NCBI RefSeq assembly: GCF_008271745.1
Contig: NZ_VKKZ01000001.1
Coordinates: 62,001 to 126,000 of the forward strand
Origin: Rufibacter glacialis
Lineage (GTDB): Bacteria; Bacteroidota; Bacteroidia; Cytophagales; Hymenobacteraceae
Direction: 5' to 3'
Length of the DNA stretch: 64,000 bases
Shown here: positions 32,262 through 44,690 of the stretch, piece after piece
Numbering within the stretch: the stretch's first letter is position 1
Layout: the number at the start of each line of letters is the position of its first letter
Notes under the pieces: model-generated
Told to the model about the DNA's origin: nothing
Seen by the model: only the letters and a program-made list of their open reading frames with translations
Database searches by the model: none
Program-made: the position numbers and the translations under genes

Positions 32262-33497
32262 TCACTCCAGGTAGTCCAGGTCTTTGTTGAAGCTTTCTGG
32301 CAGGGTAATGATGGACACAAGGGCAATGACAATGGTGACCGCGCCTAGCAGGGCTGCCGTTTCCAGAATTCCCAGGCTGCCCTGCAAGCCTTTAAACGAG
32401 AGCGTCAAAATGACCACTGCCCCCCGTACGAAGTTGGGCACGGTGGTAGTAACCGTGGCCCGTATGTTAGTCCCGAACTGCTCGGCGGCAATGGTCACGA
32501 AGACCGCCCAATAGCCCCCTCCAAACCCAAGGGCCACGCACAGCGCATAGAAATACGTCTCACTGGCGCCTTGGGCCAGCAGGAACAACGCCACAATGCC
32601 TGCCAGCAAAAACAGGAACAGCACCACCACGCTTTTCCGGCTTCTAAGCTTTTGGCTCAGCAGTCCGCTGGCCAGGTCGCCTAAGGTCAGCCCAAAATAA
32701 GAAAAGGCAATGCCCTTGGCCGCCGAGATGGGCACTGCTATGCCCAGCGCCTGGCTTATCTCCGGGGAGAAGGTGATCAGCACGCCTATCACAAACCAGA
32801 TGGGCACTCCAATGAGAATACACTTGAGGTACTTGAAGAAGCGGGCACCGTTGGTGAACAAACTCAGGAAGTTGCCCCGCACCACGTTTTGCGCCTGCGT
32901 ACGGGCATACATACCCGATTCATACACCCCAATCCGGAGCAGCAGCAAGAGCAGGCCCAGCCCTCCGCCCACAAAATAAGCGGTGCGCCAATGGAAGTAC
33001 TCGCCAATAACCCCGGCCAGAATGGCCCCTGAAATTCCCACCGACGCCACAATGGTGGTGCCATAGCCCCGCTTTTCTTTGGGCAAGACTTCAGACACCA
33101 GCGTGATGCCCGCCCCCAGCTCCCCGGCCAGCCCCACGCCGGCAATAAACCGTAGCCAGGCATAGGCCTCCAGGGTAGAAACAAAGCCATTGGCAATGTT
33201 CGCGGCAGAGTACAAAAAGATAGAGCCGAATAGGACTGAAATACGCCCTTTCTTGTCGCCAAGTACACCCCAGAAAATACCTCCCACCAACATGCCTATC
33301 ATTTGCATATTTATGAGACGCACCCCCTCCTCCAGCAGGGCAACCGAATTGGTGATTCCTAGATCTTTGAGACTGGCAATTCTGACAATGCTAAAAAGCA
33401 CCAGGTCATAAATGTCTACAAAGTAGCCTAACGCAGCCACCACAACGGCTGTGTTCAGCAATCTAGGGGCAGAAACCGGAGGAGAAGACGTGCGCAT
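32262..33497 (-). CDS. MFS transporter, sugar/organic-acid symporter type
   Basis: 411 aa with about twelve membrane segments. The major-facilitator signature between helices 2 and 3 is GDKKGRISVLFG; the loop after helix 4-5 has GVGLAGELGAGITLVSE and PKEKRGYGTTIVAS, as in the metabolite:H+ symporter and sialate/benzoate-like subfamilies. EQFGTNIRATVTTTVPNFVR near the end is the matching C-terminal motif. The substrate is unknown. It is followed on the same strand by the DUF4286 gene and is divergent from the TraB gene. Confidence 0.88.
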   Translation of the reverse strand: MRTSSPPVSAPRLLNTAVVVAALGYFVDIYDLVLFSIVRIASLKDLGITNSVALLEEGVRLINMQMIGMLVGGIFWGVLGDKKGRISVLFGSIFLYSAANIANGFVSTLEAYAWLRFIAGVGLAGELGAGITLVSEVLPKEKRGYGTTIVASVGISGAILAGVIGEYFHWRTAYFVGGGLGLLLLLLRIGVYESGMYARTQAQNVVRGNFLSLFTNGARFFKYLKCILIGVPIWFVIGVLITFSPEISQALGIAVPISAAKGIAFSYFGLTLGDLASGLLSQKLRSRKSVVVLFLFLLAGIVALFLLAQGASETYFYALCVALGFGGGYWAVFVTIAAEQFGTNIRATVTTTVPNFVRGAVVILTLSFKGLQGSLGILETAALLGAVTIVIALVSIITLPESFNKDLDYLE

Positions 33498-34650: not shown

Positions 34651-34775
34651 TTTGCTTTTACAGGCTACCCGCCAAGAACTCAGAAGCGGTTAAGCACCCG
34701 TTTTCTGAATAACCGCCCTAAAACAAGGGCCGCCCGCTCCCCTCTTGGGGCCGGCCAGGTGGATGGGCAGTTTAT

Positions 34776-34858: not shown

Positions 34859-37282
34859 TTAGCCCACCGGTACTATTACTTTGAGGCTTATGTTACGGCC
34901 CATGTTGTAAACCCCGGTGCGGCCCGTGGCCGGATTCTCTGGGGCGTACTTCAGGCGGCTCAAATGGCTCTGGTAGGCTTTGTCCAGCACGTTGTTGGCA
35001 GTGAGGTAGACAGAAAGCCGCGTTTTGCCCTGCGCGTTGGTGAGGTTTCCGCCTATGCCCAGGTTCAGCAAGGTGTAGCCCGGCGTAGGCGTCTCGGTGC
35101 CGAAGGCGCTGTACACCTTGTTCTGCGCGAAATAATTCTCCACCTCGGCCTTGGCGTACCAGTTCCTGATGTAGGTGCCTGCTTTGGGGAAACTCACGCG
35201 CAGTTCCGTGTCCAGGCGCGGGGCGGGGGTGAAGGGCAGGTACTTCATGTCCTGGGGCACGTGCTTCTGGATAGAGCGCACCCAGGAGAAGGTATTCTCC
35301 AGGTGCAGCCAGTCCAGCGGGTGCGGGTGAATGTCCAGGACAAACTCGCCGCCGTACACGTAGGCATCGCCCTGCACGTACTTGAACGTAGGGGCCAGGT
35401 CGTCTTCCTCGCCGGAAAGCGAGTCACCGCCCAATACGTTGGTCAGTTTCTGCGCGAAAATGTAGTTCTGGATGTTATTCCGGAAGCCGTTCACGCCCAG
35501 GGTCACGTGTTTGCTGTCATAGGTAAGGCCGGCATCCGCCTGCAGGCTGGTCTCGGCCTTCAGGTCTGAGTTACCCACTTCATACCGGAACGTGCCTTCA
35601 TGCCGGCCGTTAGAGGCCAGTTCCGCGATGTTGGGCGACCGGAATCCGCGGGCCAGGTTCGCTTTCACGGTCAGTTTCTCAGAAAGGCTGTAGGTGGCGC
35701 CCACGCTTCCTGAAATATTGGCGAACGAGGTGTTGAAACCGTTGAATTTCGTTTCCTCGGCCAGAGCCGGGTCGGTGGTGAATTCGTCCTCATCGGTCAT
35801 GAACAGGGCATCAGAGGCTATTTCGCGGTAGTCATACCGCAACCCGCCGCTTAGGTGCAAGGGCCCGAACTCTCGTTTCAGGAACGCGAACACGCCTGCA
35901 TCCCAGAGCCGGTACTCAGGAATAATGACTTCTTCGCCCTCGTTGCGGTTCTGCTGCACCATGCCATTCACGCCCACCGTAGGCTCCCAGCTGCCCCAAT
36001 TAGGCAGAAAGTACTTCACGTCATAGTTGAACGTGCGCAGGCGCATGGCCAGTTCCTCTTCCTGGGTGTCTACGGGGTTGCCGTACTCGCGGCGCAGGTT
36101 CTGCTGCCAGGCCAGGTTGAAGGTGAGGCGCGATTTCTCAAACACCAGATTGTTCTGCGAGGCCACCCGCAGGTGGTTGATGCGCTGCTGTGGAATGCCA
36201 ATGCCATAGCCGGTCAAGTCCTCTCCGGTGGCGGTTTCCTCTTCGGCCTCGCCGTTATGGTTCACCAGCTTCAGGAAATTGCCTTCCTCATCGCGTTCGC
36301 CCTCTACCAGGCCTACCGTCTGGTTAAACGTGCTGAAGGCCAGGTGCGAATAGCCCCAGCTTTTGTTCAGGCCCACGTAGCCGTTGGCGTTGGTTTCCCT
36401 GAAGCCCGAGTTGTACACACGTCCGTCATAGTCGTTGCGGTAGTTGCCGGCCACTTTCTGGCTCAGGCGCGCCGCCCAGTTAAACCCGTTCAGGTTACCG
36501 GCGTTGTAAGCCGAATAGCCCAACAAGTTGTTATTGCTCTGATAATTGGTAGAAAGGTTTCCGATCACCTTGCCTTCGGCAATGGGGTCTGGGGTAAGGA
36601 AGTTGATGACGCCGGCGATGCCGTCTGAGCCATACATCAAACTGCCTGGGCCTTTCACAATCTCAGCGCGGTCAATAGAGTATTCGTCAATCTCAATGCC
36701 GTGCTCATCGCCCCACTGCTGGCCTTCTTGCTTGATGCCGTCATTGAGGGTGATGATGCGGTTGAAGCCCAGGCCCCGGATAACCGGTTTGGAGATGCCT
36801 GCGCCGGTGGAGATCTGCGCCACGCCGGGCGTTTTGGCAATGGCGTCAATGATGTTGGTGGCGGCACCGCGCTCCAGTTCCTCCCGGCCTACCACCGTGG
36901 TGGGTACGGGATTCAGGCGGCTCTCCGTGGAAGAAGAAACACCCGTCACCACCACTGCCCTGATCTCCGTCACCGAAGGGGCGAGGGTGAAGTTAGCCGT
37001 GGTAGCCCCGTTGATGGTGATGGATTGCGCTTTGGTCACGTAGCCAATGTAGCGGATCTCCGCCAGGAACCGCCCTCTGGGAAGGTCTTGTAAGGAGTAA
37101 TGGCCCTCTGCATCCGTGGTAACGGCGCGTTTCAGGTCGGTCAGGTACAAGATGGCCCCAATCAGGGGAGTTTTGGTCTGCTCATCTGAGATGGTACCGG
37201 AAAGGGAGTTGTTGCTTTGGGCCATGGCGTTCCCGACGGAAAACAGCAGGCCCAGGCATAGAAAGATTCTATAGAAAAACAT
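34859..37282 (-). CDS. TonB-dependent receptor, probable divalent-metal type (module 2)
   Basis: 807 aa from ATG 37282 (MFFYRIFLCLGLLFSVG); the open frame to 37348 adds nothing typical. The signal ends near AMAQS. A carboxypeptidase-like domain (LSGTISDEQTKTPLIGAILY) precedes the plug (NPVPTTVVGREELERGAATN, KPVIRGLGFNRIITLNDGIK, EGQQWGDEHGIEIDEYSIDR, EIVKGPGSLMYGSDGIAGVI) and a 22-strand-type barrel ending in GRNISLKVIVPVG. The DEHGIEID segment and overall plug resemble ZnuD-like zinc receptors and the first receptor of this cluster. Acidic/His extracellular stretches occur (VEGERDEEGNF, NHNGEAEEETATGED). Energised by TonB-ExbBD, which is elsewhere. Zinc or copper as substrate is inference. 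Confidence 0.88.
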   Translation of the reverse strand: MFFYRIFLCLGLLFSVGNAMAQSNNSLSGTISDEQTKTPLIGAILYLTDLKRAVTTDAEGHYSLQDLPRGRFLAEIRYIGYVTKAQSITINGATTANFTLAPSVTEIRAVVVTGVSSSTESRLNPVPTTVVGREELERGAATNIIDAIAKTPGVAQISTGAGISKPVIRGLGFNRIITLNDGIKQEGQQWGDEHGIEIDEYSIDRAEIVKGPGSLMYGSDGIAGVINFLTPDPIAEGKVIGNLSTNYQSNNNLLGYSAYNAGNLNGFNWAARLSQKVAGNYRNDYDGRVYNSGFRETNANGYVGLNKSWGYSHLAFSTFNQTVGLVEGERDEEGNFLKLVNHNGEAEEETATGEDLTGYGIGIPQQRINHLRVASQNNLVFEKSRLTFNLAWQQNLRREYGNPVDTQEEELAMRLRTFNYDVKYFLPNWGSWEPTVGVNGMVQQNRNEGEEVIIPEYRLWDAGVFAFLKREFGPLHLSGGLRYDYREIASDALFMTDEDEFTTDPALAEETKFNGFNTSFANISGSVGATYSLSEKLTVKANLARGFRSPNIAELASNGRHEGTFRYEVGNSDLKAETSLQADAGLTYDSKHVTLGVNGFRNNIQNYIFAQKLTNVLGGDSLSGEEDDLAPTFKYVQGDAYVYGGEFVLDIHPHPLDWLHLENTFSWVRSIQKHVPQDMKYLPFTPAPRLDTELRVSFPKAGTYIRNWYAKAEVENYFAQNKVYSAFGTETPTPGYTLLNLGIGGNLTNAQGKTRLSVYLTANNVLDKAYQSHLSRLKYAPENPATGRTGVYNMGRNISLKVIVPVG

Positions 37283-37424
37283 GATGGTCTGGTTAAGAAA
37301 ACTGGAAAACAGGCCGTAAACCACAGCCATAGCACCTGCCGCGCGCAAGCGAGGCGCCAGAAGACGGAAGTGTTGACGGGCAGCACCGCCACCCTTCTCC
37401 TCGCAAAAAGAAAAGGCGGGAGGT

Positions 37425-37751
37425 CTAGGCTACCGCGGGCGGACCGCGCGGGGAGGCGGTATGCGGATAGCTGAATTTCCAGATGAAGGCGTACCCTGGC
37501 CGGTAGCTGTCTATCCAAGGCACCGGGGCAAGAAAGGCAACCTCTGTTTCTGAGGCCTGGAATGGCGTATCAAACAGTTCGGCGGTAGGGCAATGCGTGT
37601 GCTTTTTGTCTATGTGCGGCCGGTTCTCATCATGCGGCCGGTCTTCTGAGTGGGCGTGGGCATGCAAGGCCACCAGCACCTTTTCAGGCACCATCACCCG
37701 CATAAACAGCAGGAGCAAAAGGTAGCTACTTACAAGTCTGAGATACTGCAC
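37425..37751 (-). CDS. Small His-rich membrane protein (module 2)
   Basis: 108 aa if started at GTG 37751 (VQYLRLVSSY), the start that matches the paralogue at 41293-41625. One membrane segment (LRLVSSYLLLLLFMRVMVP) is followed by a His-rich region: ALHAHAHSEDRPHDENRPH, then DKKHTHCPTAELFDTPFQAS. The C-terminus is ASPRGPPAVA. HAHxH, KHxHC and the terminal RGPPA are shared with the paralogue. The layout, one helix, a His/Cys cluster and a C-terminal R-x-P-P, recalls DUF2946 proteins associated with copper genes, but I cannot assign it. It lies 142 bp before the second TonB receptor gene. An extension to ATG 37835 is possible but would start inside a repeat arm. Confidence 0.7.
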   Translation of the reverse strand: MQYLRLVSSYLLLLLFMRVMVPEKVLVALHAHAHSEDRPHDENRPHIDKKHTHCPTAELFDTPFQASETEVAFLAPVPWIDSYRPGYAFIWKFSYPHTASPRGPPAVA

Positions 37752-37758
37752 AAGCTTA

Positions 37759-37778
37759 GCGTATCTGCGAATATACGC
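37759..37778. promoter_or_regulatory. Inverted repeat GCGTAT-N8-ATACGC, candidate operator
   Basis: A perfect 6-bp inverted repeat with an 8-bp spacer immediately before the proposed GTG of the His-rich gene. Position fits an operator for a metal-responsive repressor; the equivalent site was not found before the paralogue, so support is weak. Confidence 0.3.
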
Positions 37779-37834
37779 AAGTTCCTTAAATACTGGTAAT
37801 AGGGCAAAATGAGGCCTAGCGGCGTGGAAAGCCA

Positions 37835-37867
37835 TTTAGTCCCTGTTTTTCTGAAAATGGCCCTAAA
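37835..37867. repeat. Core-palindrome family member
   Basis: TTTAGTCCCTGTTTTTCTG followed by AAAATGGCCCTAAA. Arms TTTAG/CTAAA pair, core is intact, one side slightly degenerate. Confidence 0.65.
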
Positions 37868-37903
37868 GCAGGGCGTGGTAGCGGCCATAAAAGTAGCGGC
37901 CAT

Positions 37904-37939
37904 AAAAAAGGAGCCGCCCTTGTTTGGCGGCTCCTTTTT
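37904..37939. terminator. Bidirectional terminator after His-rich lipoprotein gene
   Basis: AAAAAAGGAGCCGCC pairs with GGCGGCTCCTTTTT around a 7-nt loop, 35 bp past the minus-strand stop at 37975. It closes module 1 (receptor plus lipoprotein). Confidence 0.88.
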
Positions 37940-37974
37940 ACAAAATAGGCAGAAAACGGACAATAAGCCGTGGC

Positions 37975-38580
37975 TTAGTGGTCATGCCCGGAAGGGTGAA
38001 TCTCAAAGGTGACATTCAAATCATCTGAGCCTCCGGCAAAGCGGTAGTCGGGGTTGTTCCAGTTGGCGGCGGCGGCGTGCGCTTTGTTCAGGCCGTGGCG
38101 CAACACCACTTTCAGGTCAAAAGAACCATTGTCGGCTTTCAGCACCTCCATCCGGCCCTTCAGGCCAATGCCGCGGCCGTTCTTGTCCTTGTCTTCATAG
38201 GTATAGGCTAAATAACCTGGCTTAGACGGCACAAAGAAGAACTGGTGCTCGTCGCCGGCGTCTATGAATTCCTGGTTCAGCGACTTGCCTTTGCGCTGCA
38301 CATCCACGAACAGGCGGTAATGGGCATGCTCCTCCAAATGCACGTGCCGCGGCGACACGGTGCCGTCTTTGGCCACGGTCACTTTCACGGTATCGGTGGT
38401 CTGGTGGTAATGGTCATGGCCGCCGTGGGCCTCCACGTCCAGTTCCACAAAATAGAATTTCACGCCGTCAAACTCCTCCTGCGGTACCTCGGGCTCCGGG
38501 TCATCAGAAGAACAGGCGGTGAAGAACAAAGAAGCGCCTAACGCGGCAATGGTCAAAAACGAACGAAATAACGTATTCAT
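37975..38580 (-). CDS. His-rich lipoprotein of the metal-receptor locus (module 1)
   Basis: 201 aa. The signal ends in a lipobox LFFTAC (Cys about residue 23). Histidine clusters stand out: AHGGHDHYHQTTD, SPRHVHLEEHAHYR, LRHGLNKAHAAAAN and the C-terminal HPSGHDH. The protein looks like an all-beta domain (VKFYFVELDVEAHGG, VKVTVAKDGTVSPRHVHL, HQFFFVPSKPGYLAYTYEDK). It starts 42 bp after the stop of the first TonB receptor gene on the same strand and is followed by a terminator, so the two are almost certainly one transcript. A surface or periplasmic metal-binding partner of the receptor is a reasonable inference; I do not recognise a named family. Confidence 0.78.
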   Translation of the reverse strand: MNTLFRSFLTIAALGASLFFTACSSDDPEPEVPQEEFDGVKFYFVELDVEAHGGHDHYHQTTDTVKVTVAKDGTVSPRHVHLEEHAHYRLFVDVQRKGKSLNQEFIDAGDEHQFFFVPSKPGYLAYTYEDKDKNGRGIGLKGRMEVLKADNGSFDLKVVLRHGLNKAHAAAANWNNPDYRFAGGSDDLNVTFEIHPSGHDH

Positions 38581-38622
38581 GGTCTTTTTAAAATTTGGGG
38601 TTAAAAACGCTTTTAAAATGGG

Positions 38623-40980
38623 TTAGAACCGCCAGGAAACGCGCGCCGTGAAGTTGCGGCCTACGTCATGGGCATAGTACCTAAAGCGGTTCATGTACTC
38701 TTTGTAAAGGGTGTTGGTGAGGTTGTTCACCGAGAAATGGAGGCCCAGTGTTTGTTCGCCCAGCTTCCATTGGGTACCGGTGTTCAGGTGCAGCAGGTGA
38801 TAGGAGGCAGGCGGGGCCGCGAAGTCACTCCCGGCGGTATAGCGGTGCTGCCGCGCCACCCACTGCGACTGCACCTGCAGGTAAGTATCCTCCAAGGCAG
38901 AGCTAATCTCTGGCCGCCAGCTCAGGCTGTTCTCCAGCCGGTCTGTAGGAATCCAGGGCAGGTACTGGTCTTGCCGCAGGTCCGTGGCCCGCACCAGCGA
39001 GCCCTTCAGCTCATACCGGAACGGCTTCCAGAAATCATACTGCAAAGACACATCGCTGCCCCAGAAGCGGGCATCCGTTTGCCGGTACCGGAACGTGGGA
39101 AAAGACCCGCGCAGGCTCTCATAGAAACCACCCGCCGGCTCCAGGTAGATGTAATCCTGAATGTGGTTGGCATAGGCCGTGAACTCCAGTTGGAGGTTAT
39201 TGGCATGGTATTCCAGCGTATTGGTCCACTTGTAGCTTTTCTCACTTTGCAGGGTGGCATCTCCGGTCTCGTAGCTGGCAGTGCCGTGGTGCAGGCCGTT
39301 GCTGTACAGCTCATTCACCACCGGCGGACGCCAGGCAGAACCCAAATTAGTGCGGATAGTCCAGGCTGGGTGCAGGTGCAGCGCCCCGCCCAGAGAACCC
39401 GTCACGTTGTGGAACCGCCTGATGCCGCCATAGGCCTGGGCGTTCTCATAGTAGCCGCGCGCGTTCACGTATTTGTAGTCATACCGCGCCCCGGCCTCCA
39501 ATTCCCAGGTTTCCCTGATGAGCTTGCCCATGAGGTAGCCGCCACCGGCATAGCTGTCATAGTTAGGAATAAGCGGAATAGCTCCCGTACCCGGCACGTT
39601 GTTGTTGATTTGCAGCATGCCGTTGAGGCCCGTGGTGATTTTCAGGCCCCGCGAGAAGAGCTTGTCATACGCCACCTCCAGGGTTTGGGTCGTCAGCGCC
39701 ATGTCCAGCGATGGCACGCTGCGGTACTCGCCCCGCCTAATGTCAAACTCCTGCCGTTGGTTGTACTGCAGACCATACACCACGTCCAGGTTCTCACCCT
39801 CGCCCAGATGCAGGTGCCCCTTGGCTTTGAGCAGATGATGGTCTATCTGCTGCCGGGGCACACCTACCTGGTAAGAGAAAGCGCCTTCCTCCCAGGGCCG
39901 CTCCGCGGATATCCGGGTCATCAAATCCTCCAGAGAGCCAATATGCGCGCCTTTGAAAATGCCCAGTTCCGTCTGGAAACGGCTGTAGAAAAGCTCGGCA
40001 CCTATTTTCTCCGAAGTGTAGCCCAGCGCCGCTGAGTAGTTAACCTCCCGCAGCCCGGTGTTTTCCAGGTAGTAGTCGGCGGTTTTGAGGTTGCCCGCTT
40101 TCTTGAGGGTTCCTTGTACGCGCCAACCCAATCCCGGCACCTGCTTCAGGCCGCCATTTAACATTCCAGACACGGTGCCGCTGCGGCCATTGCTGGCCCC
40201 TACGGTGGTAAGCTGTCCGTGCAGTTCAGGCGTGGAAGGCAAGGCCGGAGGCTCCACCAGTACCACGCCGCCCATAGCCTCGGGGCCGTAGCGCACGGCT
40301 TCCGCGCCTTTCACCACCGTCAACCGGTTCGCAATGAAAGGGTCAATCTCGGGGGCATGTTCGGCGCCCCATTGCTGGCCTTCCTGCCGGATGCCGTTGT
40401 TCAAGGTAAGAATGCGGTTGCTGTGCAGGCCATGGATGACCGGTTTGGCAATGGTACCGCCCGTCTGCAACATGGTTACCCCAGACACCTGGGTAAGGGC
40501 CTGGGCCAGTGAGCCGCCCTGGGCTTTTTCCAGCGCCTGCCCCGTGAGCGTAGAGCCCGCCGTGGCGCCGGAGGCCGGCAACTGGTGCCCGGTCACCTCC
40601 ACTGATTTCAGCAAGGTAGCATCAACGTGTAAGGCAAAGTCCAAAGATTCTACCGTTGACCTCAGCCGTTTCTGCCGCGTTTCAGGGGAAAAACCCAAAT
40701 ACGACACCGTGACTGCTACCGGACCAGCACACAAACCGGTGAACTGGTAGCGGCCCTGGGCGTTGGTGCTGGTGGCGTGCGAAGTGCCCTGAATCTGGAC
40801 GGTGGCACCCACCAACGGGGTACCGGCATCACGGTCCAGGATAAGGCCCGAGAGGGTGAGGCCACACGGCGTTACCCCGGGGGCTGTGGCAGGTACATTC
40901 ATTTGCTGAGCCCACCCTGAGGATAGGGAAAGCCAGGCACACAGCACCAGCCACGCCGAATAGGAAAGATATTCGCGCAA
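38623..40980 (-). CDS. TonB-dependent receptor, probable divalent-metal type (module 1)
   Basis: 785 aa with a signal ending near GWAQQ. A carboxypeptidase-like domain (LSGLILDRDAGTPLVGATVQ) is followed by the plug (LEKAQGGSLAQALTQVSGVT, KPVIHGLHSNRILTLNNGIR, EGQQWGAEHAPEIDPFIANR, VVKGAEAVRYGPEAMGGVVL) and a barrel ending in RFRYYAHDVGRNFTARVSWR, then F. AEHAPEIDP and the following segment resemble ZnuD-type zinc receptors and align with the paralogue at 34859-37282. Gene order on the minus strand is small His-rich protein, this receptor, His-rich lipoprotein. Imports a metal or metal complex across the outer membrane by TonB energy; which metal is inferred only. Confidence 0.88.
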   Translation of the reverse strand: MREYLSYSAWLVLCAWLSLSSGWAQQMNVPATAPGVTPCGLTLSGLILDRDAGTPLVGATVQIQGTSHATSTNAQGRYQFTGLCAGPVAVTVSYLGFSPETRQKRLRSTVESLDFALHVDATLLKSVEVTGHQLPASGATAGSTLTGQALEKAQGGSLAQALTQVSGVTMLQTGGTIAKPVIHGLHSNRILTLNNGIRQEGQQWGAEHAPEIDPFIANRLTVVKGAEAVRYGPEAMGGVVLVEPPALPSTPELHGQLTTVGASNGRSGTVSGMLNGGLKQVPGLGWRVQGTLKKAGNLKTADYYLENTGLREVNYSAALGYTSEKIGAELFYSRFQTELGIFKGAHIGSLEDLMTRISAERPWEEGAFSYQVGVPRQQIDHHLLKAKGHLHLGEGENLDVVYGLQYNQRQEFDIRRGEYRSVPSLDMALTTQTLEVAYDKLFSRGLKITTGLNGMLQINNNVPGTGAIPLIPNYDSYAGGGYLMGKLIRETWELEAGARYDYKYVNARGYYENAQAYGGIRRFHNVTGSLGGALHLHPAWTIRTNLGSAWRPPVVNELYSNGLHHGTASYETGDATLQSEKSYKWTNTLEYHANNLQLEFTAYANHIQDYIYLEPAGGFYESLRGSFPTFRYRQTDARFWGSDVSLQYDFWKPFRYELKGSLVRATDLRQDQYLPWIPTDRLENSLSWRPEISSALEDTYLQVQSQWVARQHRYTAGSDFAAPPASYHLLHLNTGTQWKLGEQTLGLHFSVNNLTNTLYKEYMNRFRYYAHDVGRNFTARVSWRF

Positions 40981-41115
40981 CTTGGTAAGAATAAAGAATG
41001 AAAAATAGACGGGCGGGAGCCCATTGGTTTCTCAGGCGCGCAAGAGCTTGTTTAACTTTGGATTCAAAGGCGGAAACAGCAAGAGCAAGGTTCTGCGGAA
41101 GCGGTTTTTAAGCCT

Positions 41116-41133
41116 CGTAGCAGCGCTACGGTG
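41116..41133. repeat. Dispersed hairpin CGTAGCAGCGCTACGGTG, copy 1
   Basis: The 18-bp word includes the palindromic GTAGC/GCTAC pair and recurs exactly, in inverted orientation, at 47952-47969. Confidence 0.7.
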
Positions 41134-41210
41134 GCATTGAAAGCGGGAACGCAGGTACTTGCTAGAGTCCGGTTTTCTGCCCGAAGCTTAAGCTTAAACT
41201 AGCTTTAAAG

Positions 41211-41250
41211 CCGTTTCCGGCCTGTTTTAAGAAAAACAGCCGTCAGACGG
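41211..41250. repeat. Core-palindrome family member
   Basis: Core GGCCTGTTTTAAG then AAAAACAGCC, outer arms CCGTTTC and GTCAGACGG. Good core pairing, imperfect arms. Confidence 0.7.
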
Positions 41251-41292
41251 GTGCGCATGGAATGGTCTGGCCCATCCTATACCCAAGAAAAA

Positions 41293-41625
41293 TTAAGAAA
41301 GGGAGAAACCTGCCGGGGGCCCGCGCAGGAAGGAATAGGCGGGAGTAGTGGCATACCCCGCCAGCGTCATGAAGGAACCGTGCTGCACCACGTGCACCAG
41401 CGGAACCGGCACCACCACCCCCTCAGGAGCCTGGAAAGATGCCTGGAACAGGCTGTCTACCGCGCAGTGGTGGTGCTTGGAGCTGACCAGGGATTTTCCC
41501 GGATAATGGGCCGCTTCTTCGGTGTGTTCGTGCGCGTGCAGTTGCAGCAGCAGCGCATCCGGGGTCATGACCCGGGTGAACAGCAGCAGCAAAAACAGGG
41601 CACTATAGCGCGAGAAGTTTTTCAC
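41293..41625 (-). CDS. Small His-rich membrane protein (module 1)
   Basis: 110 aa from GTG 41625 (VKNFSRYSALFLLLLF). The ATG at 41682 lies upstream of a good -7 box at 41645-41652, so it cannot start translation from that promoter. One membrane segment is followed by LLLQLHAHEHTEEAAHYPGK and VSSKHHHCAVDSLFQASFQ, with the C-terminus FLRGPPAGFSLS. The spacing of HAHxH, KHHHC and RGPPA matches the paralogue at 37425-37751. It is first gene of the cluster on the minus strand, 312 bp before the receptor gene. Probably a periplasm-facing metal-binding protein; family unknown, some likeness in layout to DUF2946. Confidence 0.72.
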   Translation of the reverse strand: MKNFSRYSALFLLLLFTRVMTPDALLLQLHAHEHTEEAAHYPGKSLVSSKHHHCAVDSLFQASFQAPEGVVVPVPLVHVVQHGSFMTLAGYATTPAYSFLRGPPAGFSLS

Positions 41626-41644
41626 CGGAACAGTTAGATTCGGC

Positions 41645-41652
41645 CAAATATA
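41645..41652 (-). promoter_or_regulatory. -7 box TATATTTG before the His-rich gene
   Basis: Minus-strand TATATTTG matches TAnnTTTG exactly and lies 19 bp before GTG 41625. It decides the start codon of that gene. Confidence 0.6.
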
Positions 41653-41800
41653 CAAGGTTTTTGCCTGAAGAGTTGCCTCCACGGTGATTTTCTGATCATT
41701 GCCTCTGCCATCCTGTCACTTTTGCTCCTCTGGAACAGCTTTTGCCAAGGGATGAATTGTTGCTTATGCAGTGCTGCTTTTTTGGGCTTGTCAGCTAACG

Positions 41801-43959: not shown

Positions 43960-44121
43960 TTAAAGGTCAGTTGCTTTCACTCGTATTATTTTGCCGTCCT
44001 GTGAGAATACCAACTCTCCGTTAACCTTCTGCTTGGCCTTTACCAGCTTAATGAATGCCAGGTCAAGGCCTTTCAGTATCTTGTTCTTGAGTTCTTCCGT
44101 GTTTTGGATTTCTTTTTCCAT
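43960..44121 (-). CDS. 53-aa partner of the zeta-like kinase
   Basis: Short frame starting at ATG 44121, where the last base of the kinase stop codon is the A of ATG... on the minus strand the junction reads TAATG, so translation is coupled. Reading: MEKEIQNTEELKNKILKGLD, continuing LAFIKLVKAKQKVNGELVFS and ending VKATDL. It is highly charged, helical in its first half and ends in two short strands (ELVFSQDGKIIRVKA). It resembles small proteins that accompany zeta-type kinases in Bacteroidota; an antitoxin or specificity role is inference. Composition matches the kinase gene. Confidence 0.7.
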   Translation of the reverse strand: MEKEIQNTEELKNKILKGLDLAFIKLVKAKQKVNGELVFSQDGKIIRVKATDL

Positions 44122-44690
44122 TAGTGCCTTTCTTTAAGCAATCTCCATGTTTCAGGAGCGTAAATGGTAAACTTCTCAGCCTTTATGCCCTCTGCAATCA
44201 TCGTATACGGTGTTTGGGAATTGTCAATCATCATCCAGAAATCGCATAATGGAATGAATAGTTCATAAAGATTATGAAGTCCCTTCCTGTATCGTCTACA
44301 AATTACCTCTTCCGGAATATTATGCCCACCTTCTGCCACTCTTGCTTTAACTCTTTCTATGGCCAGTTCAGGGCTGCTAAGCCAAAAATAGACAAGAGTG
44401 ATACGGTAACCTAACTCCTTTGCCTGTTTAACGGTTTGGGCATAGCTTCTGGTAGAGAGAGTAGTTTCTATGGCAAAATCTTCCCCTTTCTTCAACAATT
44501 CCTGTATGCGTTGCAACATGATTCTTGCCGCTTCTATGGCCACCTTCTCCGGTTGAAATGGGGAAAGTCCCCGGGCAATCTCATCTGCATTCACAAACTC
44601 CCGGCAGTTCAGCATGTCAGGCAGCACAGTAAAGGAGGCAGTGGTTTTTCCCGCTCCATTGCAACCTGCTATGATGTATAAGTTAGGCAT
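44121..44690 (-). CDS. Zeta-toxin-like P-loop kinase
   Basis: 189 aa. The Walker A loop is IAGCNGAGKTTAS at the very N-terminus; NADEIARGLSPF carries the Asp typical of zeta toxins and related UDP-GlcNAc kinases; AIETTLSTRSYAQTV and VYFWLSSPELAIERVKARV (with the following GGHNIP and RRY) fit the same family, where the Arg residues contact ATP. Zeta toxins phosphorylate UDP-N-acetylglucosamine, but many chromosomal relatives may be housekeeping kinases. A coupled 53-aa gene follows. No epsilon-like antitoxin precedes it. Composition is more AT-rich than neighbouring htpG. Confidence 0.8.
   Translation of the reverse strand: MPNLYIIAGCNGAGKTTASFTVLPDMLNCREFVNADEIARGLSPFQPEKVAIEAARIMLQRIQELLKKGEDFAIETTLSTRSYAQTVKQAKELGYRITLVYFWLSSPELAIERVKARVAEGGHNIPEEVICRRYRKGLHNLYELFIPLCDFWMMIDNSQTPYTMIAEGIKAEKFTIYAPETWRLLKERH

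Follow-up and report, generated by a model that had tools for sequence, protein, structure and literature searches.

Within a 64,000-nucleotide stretch of Rufibacter glacialis DNA (contig NZ_VKKZ01000001.1; hereafter the window, meaning the whole stretch that was analysed), which belongs to a 5.3 Mb genome of Rufibacter type in the family Hymenobacteraceae, two modules on the minus strand each place a gene for a His-rich mini-protein ahead of a gene for a TonB-dependent receptor. Each module is probably a metal-responsive arrest-peptide leader followed by a ZnuD-like TonB receptor, whatever the metal, to which module 1 adds a lipoprotein. The basis presented here for this leader model is the anatomy of the mini-proteins, their conservation, the spacing of their motifs and their association with receptors. 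In the order of transcription, the locus reads leader 1, receptor 1, lipoprotein, hairpin, leader 2 and receptor 2. The five minus-strand open reading frames (ORFs) drawn in an earlier reading of the sequence (the original prediction) are all present, and the module coordinates below refer to that strand.

Leader 1 (41293..41625; 110 aa, GTG start) consists of a hydrophobic N-terminus, HAHEHT, KHHHC, a 46-residue spacer, RGPP (codons CGC GGG CCC CCG, 41314..41325), AGFSLS and the stop codon, whereas leader 2 (37425..37751; 108 aa, GTG start) carries HAHAHS, KHTHC, a 47-residue spacer, RGPP (codons CGC GGT CCG CCC, 37437..37448), AVA and the stop codon. RGPP lies 6 and 3 residues before the stop, respectively, and no other R[AG]PP occurs in the 17,792 aa encoded by the 49 window genes, where 0.13 RGPP is expected from composition. 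In an alignment of 24 leaders from the window and its relatives (A1), in which R[AG]PP was among the picking criteria, R-G-P-P is among the invariant positions, together with the three His of HxHxH and, in HxHC, the Cys and both His; the alignment also shows an invariant hydrophobic run. The invariance of R[AG]PP in A1 is therefore partly by construction. When leaders were picked again by the hydrophobic run, HxHxH and HxHC, R[AG]PP was still found in 22 of 22 receptor-1 leaders, and in all 29 loci obtained by profile search RGPP lies 2-10 residues before the stop. Over 48 leaders, RGPP is encoded by the full range of synonymous codons (four for Gly, four for Pro and six for Arg), which argues that the peptide and not the DNA has been kept.

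The distance between the Cys and RGPP is likewise constrained. In A1 the Cys-to-Arg distance is 46 residues in 12 leaders and 47 in the other 12, over a variable spacer of 42% identity, and in 45 of 48 Bacteroidota leaders, in which the Cys was no picking criterion, it stands 47 or 48 positions before the Arg. What occupies the sensor place differs among groups: HHHC and HTHC in the window leaders, which have no CXXC there, and CXXC in the corresponding position of other leaders in the phylum. By family, CXXC was found in f22, f25 and f29, whereas CxC, a single Cys or HxHC was found in f23 and no Cys in two f11 loci (locus L113 is missing from this list through a filter, although its leader ends in RGPP).

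This arrangement has a close analogue in the CruR-BfrG/CrtA system of Bordetella pertussis, which likewise has a small first ORF and a TonB receptor downstream (PMC9426467; PMC12914433; the accounts of this and the other systems cited below are drawn on in part). The view in the original prediction that no such system had been described was thus wrong in kind. In CruR, copper is sensed by a CXXC motif of the nascent chain and RAPP is needed for receptor expression; copper relieves the arrest, and Rho-dependent termination follows (PMC9426467). The metal motif lies about 45 residues before a C-terminal R-A/G-PP, against 46-47 after the Cys here. As in CruR, a C-terminal RAPP-type motif (RGPP, in some leaders RAPP) is held at a fixed distance, conserved within 1-2 residues, and gene order and promoter box place the leader at the head of an operon with a TonB receptor. 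An intergenic leader is also common to both, 162 bp long in CruR and 142 and 312 nt in the window. The window leaders differ from CruR in carrying HxHC instead of CXXC and RGPP instead of RAPP, and in scoring below the DUF2946 cut-off; their modules differ in the ZnuD-like receptor, the lipoprotein and the Bacteroidota host. Furthermore, more than 75% of CrtA (BfrG) loci have a PepSY_TM gene downstream, a partner that neither window receptor possesses: the gene 3' of receptor 1 encodes the lipoprotein, and that 3' of receptor 2 is an opposite-strand TraB/GumN gene. The word Bacteroidota is absent from the main text of PMC9426467. Because the PF11162 (DUF2946) cut-off is not reached and CXXC is lacking, the leaders are not classed as DUF2946 members, and we place the family as a new form of CruR-type leader.

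The genre to which these leaders belong is already known, since a survey reports TonB-related RAPP/RGPP upstream ORFs (uORFs) in bulk for Gram-negative bacteria (PMC12992588). According to the same source, small ORFs with RAPP or RGPP are over-represented ahead of TonB receptors, and of the RAPP-like motifs RGPP arrests most stably; in many phyla no tetrapeptide is more strongly excluded than RGPP. With this class the window leaders share the small ORF, an RGPP close to the stop codon and the same-strand gene downstream (PMC12992588, PMC10987492). In the parts of these two accounts drawn on here, uORFs of Cu-related genes are said not to be found in Bacteroidota, and no such family, Cys-RGPP spacing or set of ligand variants is described. 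CutF of Rhodobacter capsulatus is another exported nascent copper sensor, whose metal motif precedes a Pro-rich C-terminus by 45 residues and which is reported to give no stable protein in the cell; unlike the window leaders, it controls a multicopper oxidase, and copper prolongs its stalling-like process (PMC9973294). A literature search returned no paper that we recognised as describing the leader family in Bacteroidota, the supplements of PMC12992588 being outside its scope.

Leaders and receptors are associated well beyond the window. Among the 30 best-scoring receptor-1-type matches, 22 have a leader, namely all 22 inside the family and none of the eight outside it. Across the phylum, an ORF with R[AG]PP at its end lies upstream at 23 of 29 new receptor-2-type loci, in a survey that displayed frames of at least 60 residues within 900 nt and that scored L088 as lacking a leader, since the one in that cluster belongs to the receptor-1 gene. 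The family leader profile matches each of 150 sampled family genomes, in six of six genera, and so the co-occurrence in related genomes that the original prediction expected is strong. Because the sensor differs elsewhere in the phylum, the same profile matches only 8 of 395 genomes over the phylum, and of these eight, four lie outside the family. Named records with relatives of leader 2 comprise six from Rufibacter and one from Pontibacter. The window's own genome served as a control: of its 45 other TonB-receptor matches, 39 were fetched, and upstream of these no ORF of the leader kind was seen (chance R[AG]PP frames were judged by eye).

Some genomes carry further copies of the leader. In 18 such genomes, 20 further leader places were fetched and 19 were read, all of which have RGPP with a Cys 46-48 residues before it; the stop follows RGPP after 2-5 residues in 18 and after 20 residues in L173. 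At the remaining place (L177), the profile search had reported a leader that was not recovered on reading the locus. Five of the extra copies precede a receptor of the EGQQWG or ESQQWG type, and about ten precede a different receptor (two confirmed as TonB receptors, the rest assigned by resemblance), one of which exceeds the cut-off for siderophore receptors (TIGR01783; 284 bits, cut-off 223.5). In several of these siderophore-type operons (L168, L169, L171, L172, L174-L176 and L179-L181), an AstE/AspA-like enzyme is encoded between leader and receptor, and in five longer views (L186-L189 and L192) genes for an ABC ATPase and two large membrane proteins, read as ABC-2 permeases, follow. In one case the leader is the first of five consecutive genes, the last of which encodes an EGQQWG receptor. 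Genome G012 has a leader of a second type (L190:970-1386), which combines HHHH and CTLC with RGPP at the C-terminus and lies upstream of a lipoprotein-like gene, and one genome can thus carry two sensor types.

A TAnnTT[TC]G box, which we take to be the Bacteroidota -7 promoter element, lies at most 60 nt upstream of the start in 22 of 24 leaders (shuffled sequences gave a mean of 1.6 and a maximum of 7). In the window, scanning for this pattern places TATATTTG (41645..41652) 19 nt before leader 1 and TATATTCG (37768..37775) 16 nt before leader 2, both of which suggest that the leader is the first ORF of its transcript. No Zur or Fur box was recognised by eye at the leader promoters, and no systematic search was made.

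The RNA between leader and receptor also has conserved features. In 11 genus members, 135-156 nt separate the leader stop from the receptor start, and a hairpin (P3) conserved in all 11 leaders ends 25-30 nt before the receptor start; P3 has six pairs, one of them with a two-sided change. The window has a hairpin with a T-rich tail 28 nt before receptor 1 (41009..41024, the P3 position of the genus) and another 29 nt before receptor 2 (37312..37328). A further helix (P1), found by eye, pairs bases just 3' of the leader stop with bases just before the hairpin. One of its positions shows GC, CG, AT and TG, and at two others AT and GC replace each other. Of 99 pairs in P1, 81 form, whereas 5000 partner swaps never gave more than 80, for arms that were set by hand in related sequences of which G009 and G013 fit poorly; RNAalifold on a MAFFT alignment did not return this helix. 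Folding of single sequences gave shuffle fractions of 0.003-0.44, and the RNA of the window's leader 1 is more stable than its shuffles (z -3.33). Over the region as a whole, hairpins with a T-tail are in no excess (11 sites against 8.6 by chance). The two terminators of the original prediction can both be seen: a strong hairpin with a T-run between the modules (37904-37934), visible in the sequence and absent from the pattern-scan list, and a hairpin after receptor 2 (34810-34798) that is in that list. Taken together, the features of the leader RNA suggest attenuation, be it through Rho, hairpin termination or translation control.

The leader model can be set out as a sequence of steps. Judging by the -7 box, transcription would start just before the leader ORF, and the hydrophobic N-terminus suggests that the leader would be exported cotranslationally. 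RGPP would enter the peptidyl-transferase centre once HxHC, at a distance of about 46 residues, has just emerged from the ribosome tunnel, and translation would arrest. Without metal, the arrest would hold and the receptor would be expressed. Metal bound to HxHxH/HxHC would relieve the arrest and the ribosome would finish at the nearby stop codon, after which, by analogy with CruR, the leader RNA might let transcription or translation end ahead of the receptor gene.

Several observations weigh against this model. The Cys is absent from two phylum leaders and one residue off in a third, and leader 1 of the sister genome G011 (L010:3910-4335) has no stop soon after RGPP and reads on for 38 more residues, toward the receptor start. 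Matches to PF11162 are weak: the window gave 17.7 bits against a gathering score of 23.7, 8 of 24 family leaders match weakly (best E 0.0011), and the cut-off is reached in none of 29 genomes, while weak matches also occur in 3 of 14 control genomes; nor is it reached by any of 10 phylum leaders, CXXC ones included. The eight leaderless receptor-1 homologs all come from other families of the order, and five receptor-2 homologs also lack such a leader. Two of the extra copies (L167 and L173) precede a GreA/GreB-like gene, confirmed in one case, and no receptor. Finally, the case for P3 as an intrinsic terminator is weak: the RNA of the window's leader 2 is no more stable than its shuffles (z -0.08), and a strict terminator scan with shuffles gave 1 of 23 with many receptor starts misplaced, which is no fair test either way.

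Receptor 1 (EGQQWGAEHAPEID, 38623..40980; 785 aa, TTG start) and receptor 2 (EGQQWGDEHGIEID, 34859..37282; 807 aa, ATG start) both pass the Pfam plug and barrel cut-offs, with a CarboxypepD_reg domain in front. The original prediction had described them as resembling ZnuD-like receptors and sharing an EGQQWG-x-EH-x-x-EID motif, and both points hold: the motif is present in each, as EGQQWG-D/A-EH-xx-EID, and ZnuD is the closest solved relative of both (E 1e-24 and 6.4e-14). Positions 113 and 114 of the ZnuD chain align with the Glu-His of EGQQWGxEH, and position 513 with the His of SNGRH/SNGLHH; with an offset of 14, deduced from motif and numbering, these would be residues 99, 100 and 499. The zinc ligands of ZnuD are Asp-99, His-100, Glu-340 and His-499. 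The counterparts of ZnuD His-100 and His-499 (PMC4557270) are then H208 and H564 in receptor 1, both kept in 30 of 30 homologs, and H194 and H561 in receptor 2, kept in 30 and 24 of 30. A Glu faces ZnuD Asp-99 in the window receptors, and the region of Glu-340 is unaligned. In contrast to ZnuD, the receptors carry CarboxypepD_reg, offer no located Glu-340 and score far below the NCBIfam ZnuD cut-off (NF038289; 132.1 and 105.5 bits against 950). They also remain below the cut-off for OprC copper receptors (TIGR01778; 62.2 and 61.4 bits against 472.45), and neither reaches the hemin-receptor cut-off.

Evidence on the receptor substrate from neighbouring genes is mixed. In G025 and G029 a CDF-type efflux gene was recognised by eye 3' of receptor 2, with confirmation in G029, and in G051 a receptor-1 homolog that has no RGPP leader directly adjoins a Fur-family gene (L129:5969-6364), which scores under all NCBIfam equivalog cut-offs. 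A study of zinc regulation in a Bacteroidota species leaves the substrate unsettled in the part drawn on here (PMC11960050). Given the leader model, we rate zinc at about an even chance as the ligand and copper somewhat under even, with other metals sharing the small rest; zinc is thus slightly favoured over copper, the receptor residues and the Fur-family gene in G051 pointing to zinc and the kinship of the leaders to copper. In the copper version, which overlaps with the reading preferred here, the leaders sense copper and the receptors import chelated copper as BfrG/CrtA do. CruR responds to copper and is built on CXXC, a motif that many leaders of Bacteroidota share; there are weak matches to DUF2946 and LpqS, and OprC is the second molecule among the Protein Data Bank (PDB) matches of receptor 1. 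Yet the window's own sensor is HxHC, the receptors are nearest to ZnuD with the zinc-site His aligned, no PepSY_TM gene belongs to the module, and the regulator beside the receptor-1 homolog is of the Fur family.

The original prediction took the mini-proteins for His-rich parts of a capture device, that is, for periplasmic or membrane carriers of metal to or from the receptors. This we consider improbable. The invariance of HxHxH and HxHC in A1 and the genetic link to receptors and lipoprotein would suit such carriers, but the C-terminal RGPP, the fixed Cys-to-RGPP length over a variable spacer and the regular position next to a promoter box, ahead of the other ORFs, would go unexplained, and RGPP is avoided in bacterial proteomes (PMC12992588). 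The conserved RGPP with its free codon use, the fixed spacing, the place behind the promoter box and the relatives with CXXC fit an arrest peptide better. It is still less probable that the leaders monitor protein export, as SecM and ApdA do, and not metal: RAPP/RGPP arrest peptides do occur upstream of sec and yidC genes (PMC10987492) and the leaders have a hydrophobic N-terminus, but the genes downstream are receptors and related operons, not sec genes, and His and Cys ligands are conserved at a fixed distance.

The lipoprotein (37975..38580; 201 aa, with a lipobox-like LFFTAC) is a conserved neighbour of the receptor that is His-rich only in the window and its sister genome. It lies 3' of receptor 1 in 28 of 29 loci of relatives, leaderless ones included (L034 is the exception). 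The window copy has 14 His, that of the sister genome 16, and 24 of 25 relatives have 2-7, in a count that left out the lipoproteins of L019, L021 and L023. The original prediction's His-rich lipoprotein therefore does not stand as a defining part of the system. H112 and H162 are invariant in 24 sequences (alignment A4, which left out L026 and L029). The protein is modelled as a beta-sandwich (pLDDT 80, pTM 0.74), for which structure comparison gave weak beta-sandwich matches only (best E 6.5e-4, TMq 0.35). A role as the key metal binder was considered and is weakened, because the copies of relatives are not His-rich; the matches of the model are weak as well.

The mini-protein and receptor unit is repeated and metal-related, as the original prediction held; the two leaders are 35% and the two receptors 30% identical, and any duplication that produced them must be old. 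Near receptor 2 lies an MFS transporter gene (32262-33497), and a similar gene near receptors in G029 (L117) and G030 (L133) suggests that it may be an inner-membrane partner. At 41704-41719 there is an imperfect copy of the palindrome TGACAGG(A/T)TGTCA, which several relatives carry in nearly perfect form upstream of their leaders; a gene judged by eye to be HtpG-like adjoins leader 1 divergently in the window and in several relatives, and the palindrome may therefore belong to that gene. Intergenic palindromes with GTTTT/AAAAC-like cores, seen by eye only at about 37862-37900 and 34700-34735, resemble hairpins within the leader RNAs of relatives (a long, near-perfect one in L015) and may be a repeated genomic element. 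A stand-alone P-loop protein encoded at 44121-44690 presumably resembles zeta-toxin-like kinases.

We know of no zinc-responsive ribosome-arrest sensor. A wider reading, which we put forward tentatively and regard as rather unlikely in its entirety, is a Bacteroidota-wide arrest-sensor regulon with re-tuned ligands (CXXC, CxC, HxHC and Cys-free), among them a zinc-responsive arrest sensor, that would use a covarying RNA attenuator instead of Rho and control ZnuD-like receptors as well as siderophore-type receptor operons with ABC transporters. If the leader model is true, metal-binding nascent-peptide arrest would be a normal control of metal receptors in Bacteroidota, with such a leader in each of the sampled family genomes. 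The natural series of ligands at a fixed distance from RGPP would make the choice of metal in a nascent chain testable, and likewise how a metal near the tunnel exit frees a stalled ribosome. The annotation of 'hypothetical His-rich proteins' beside TonB receptors would then need correction.

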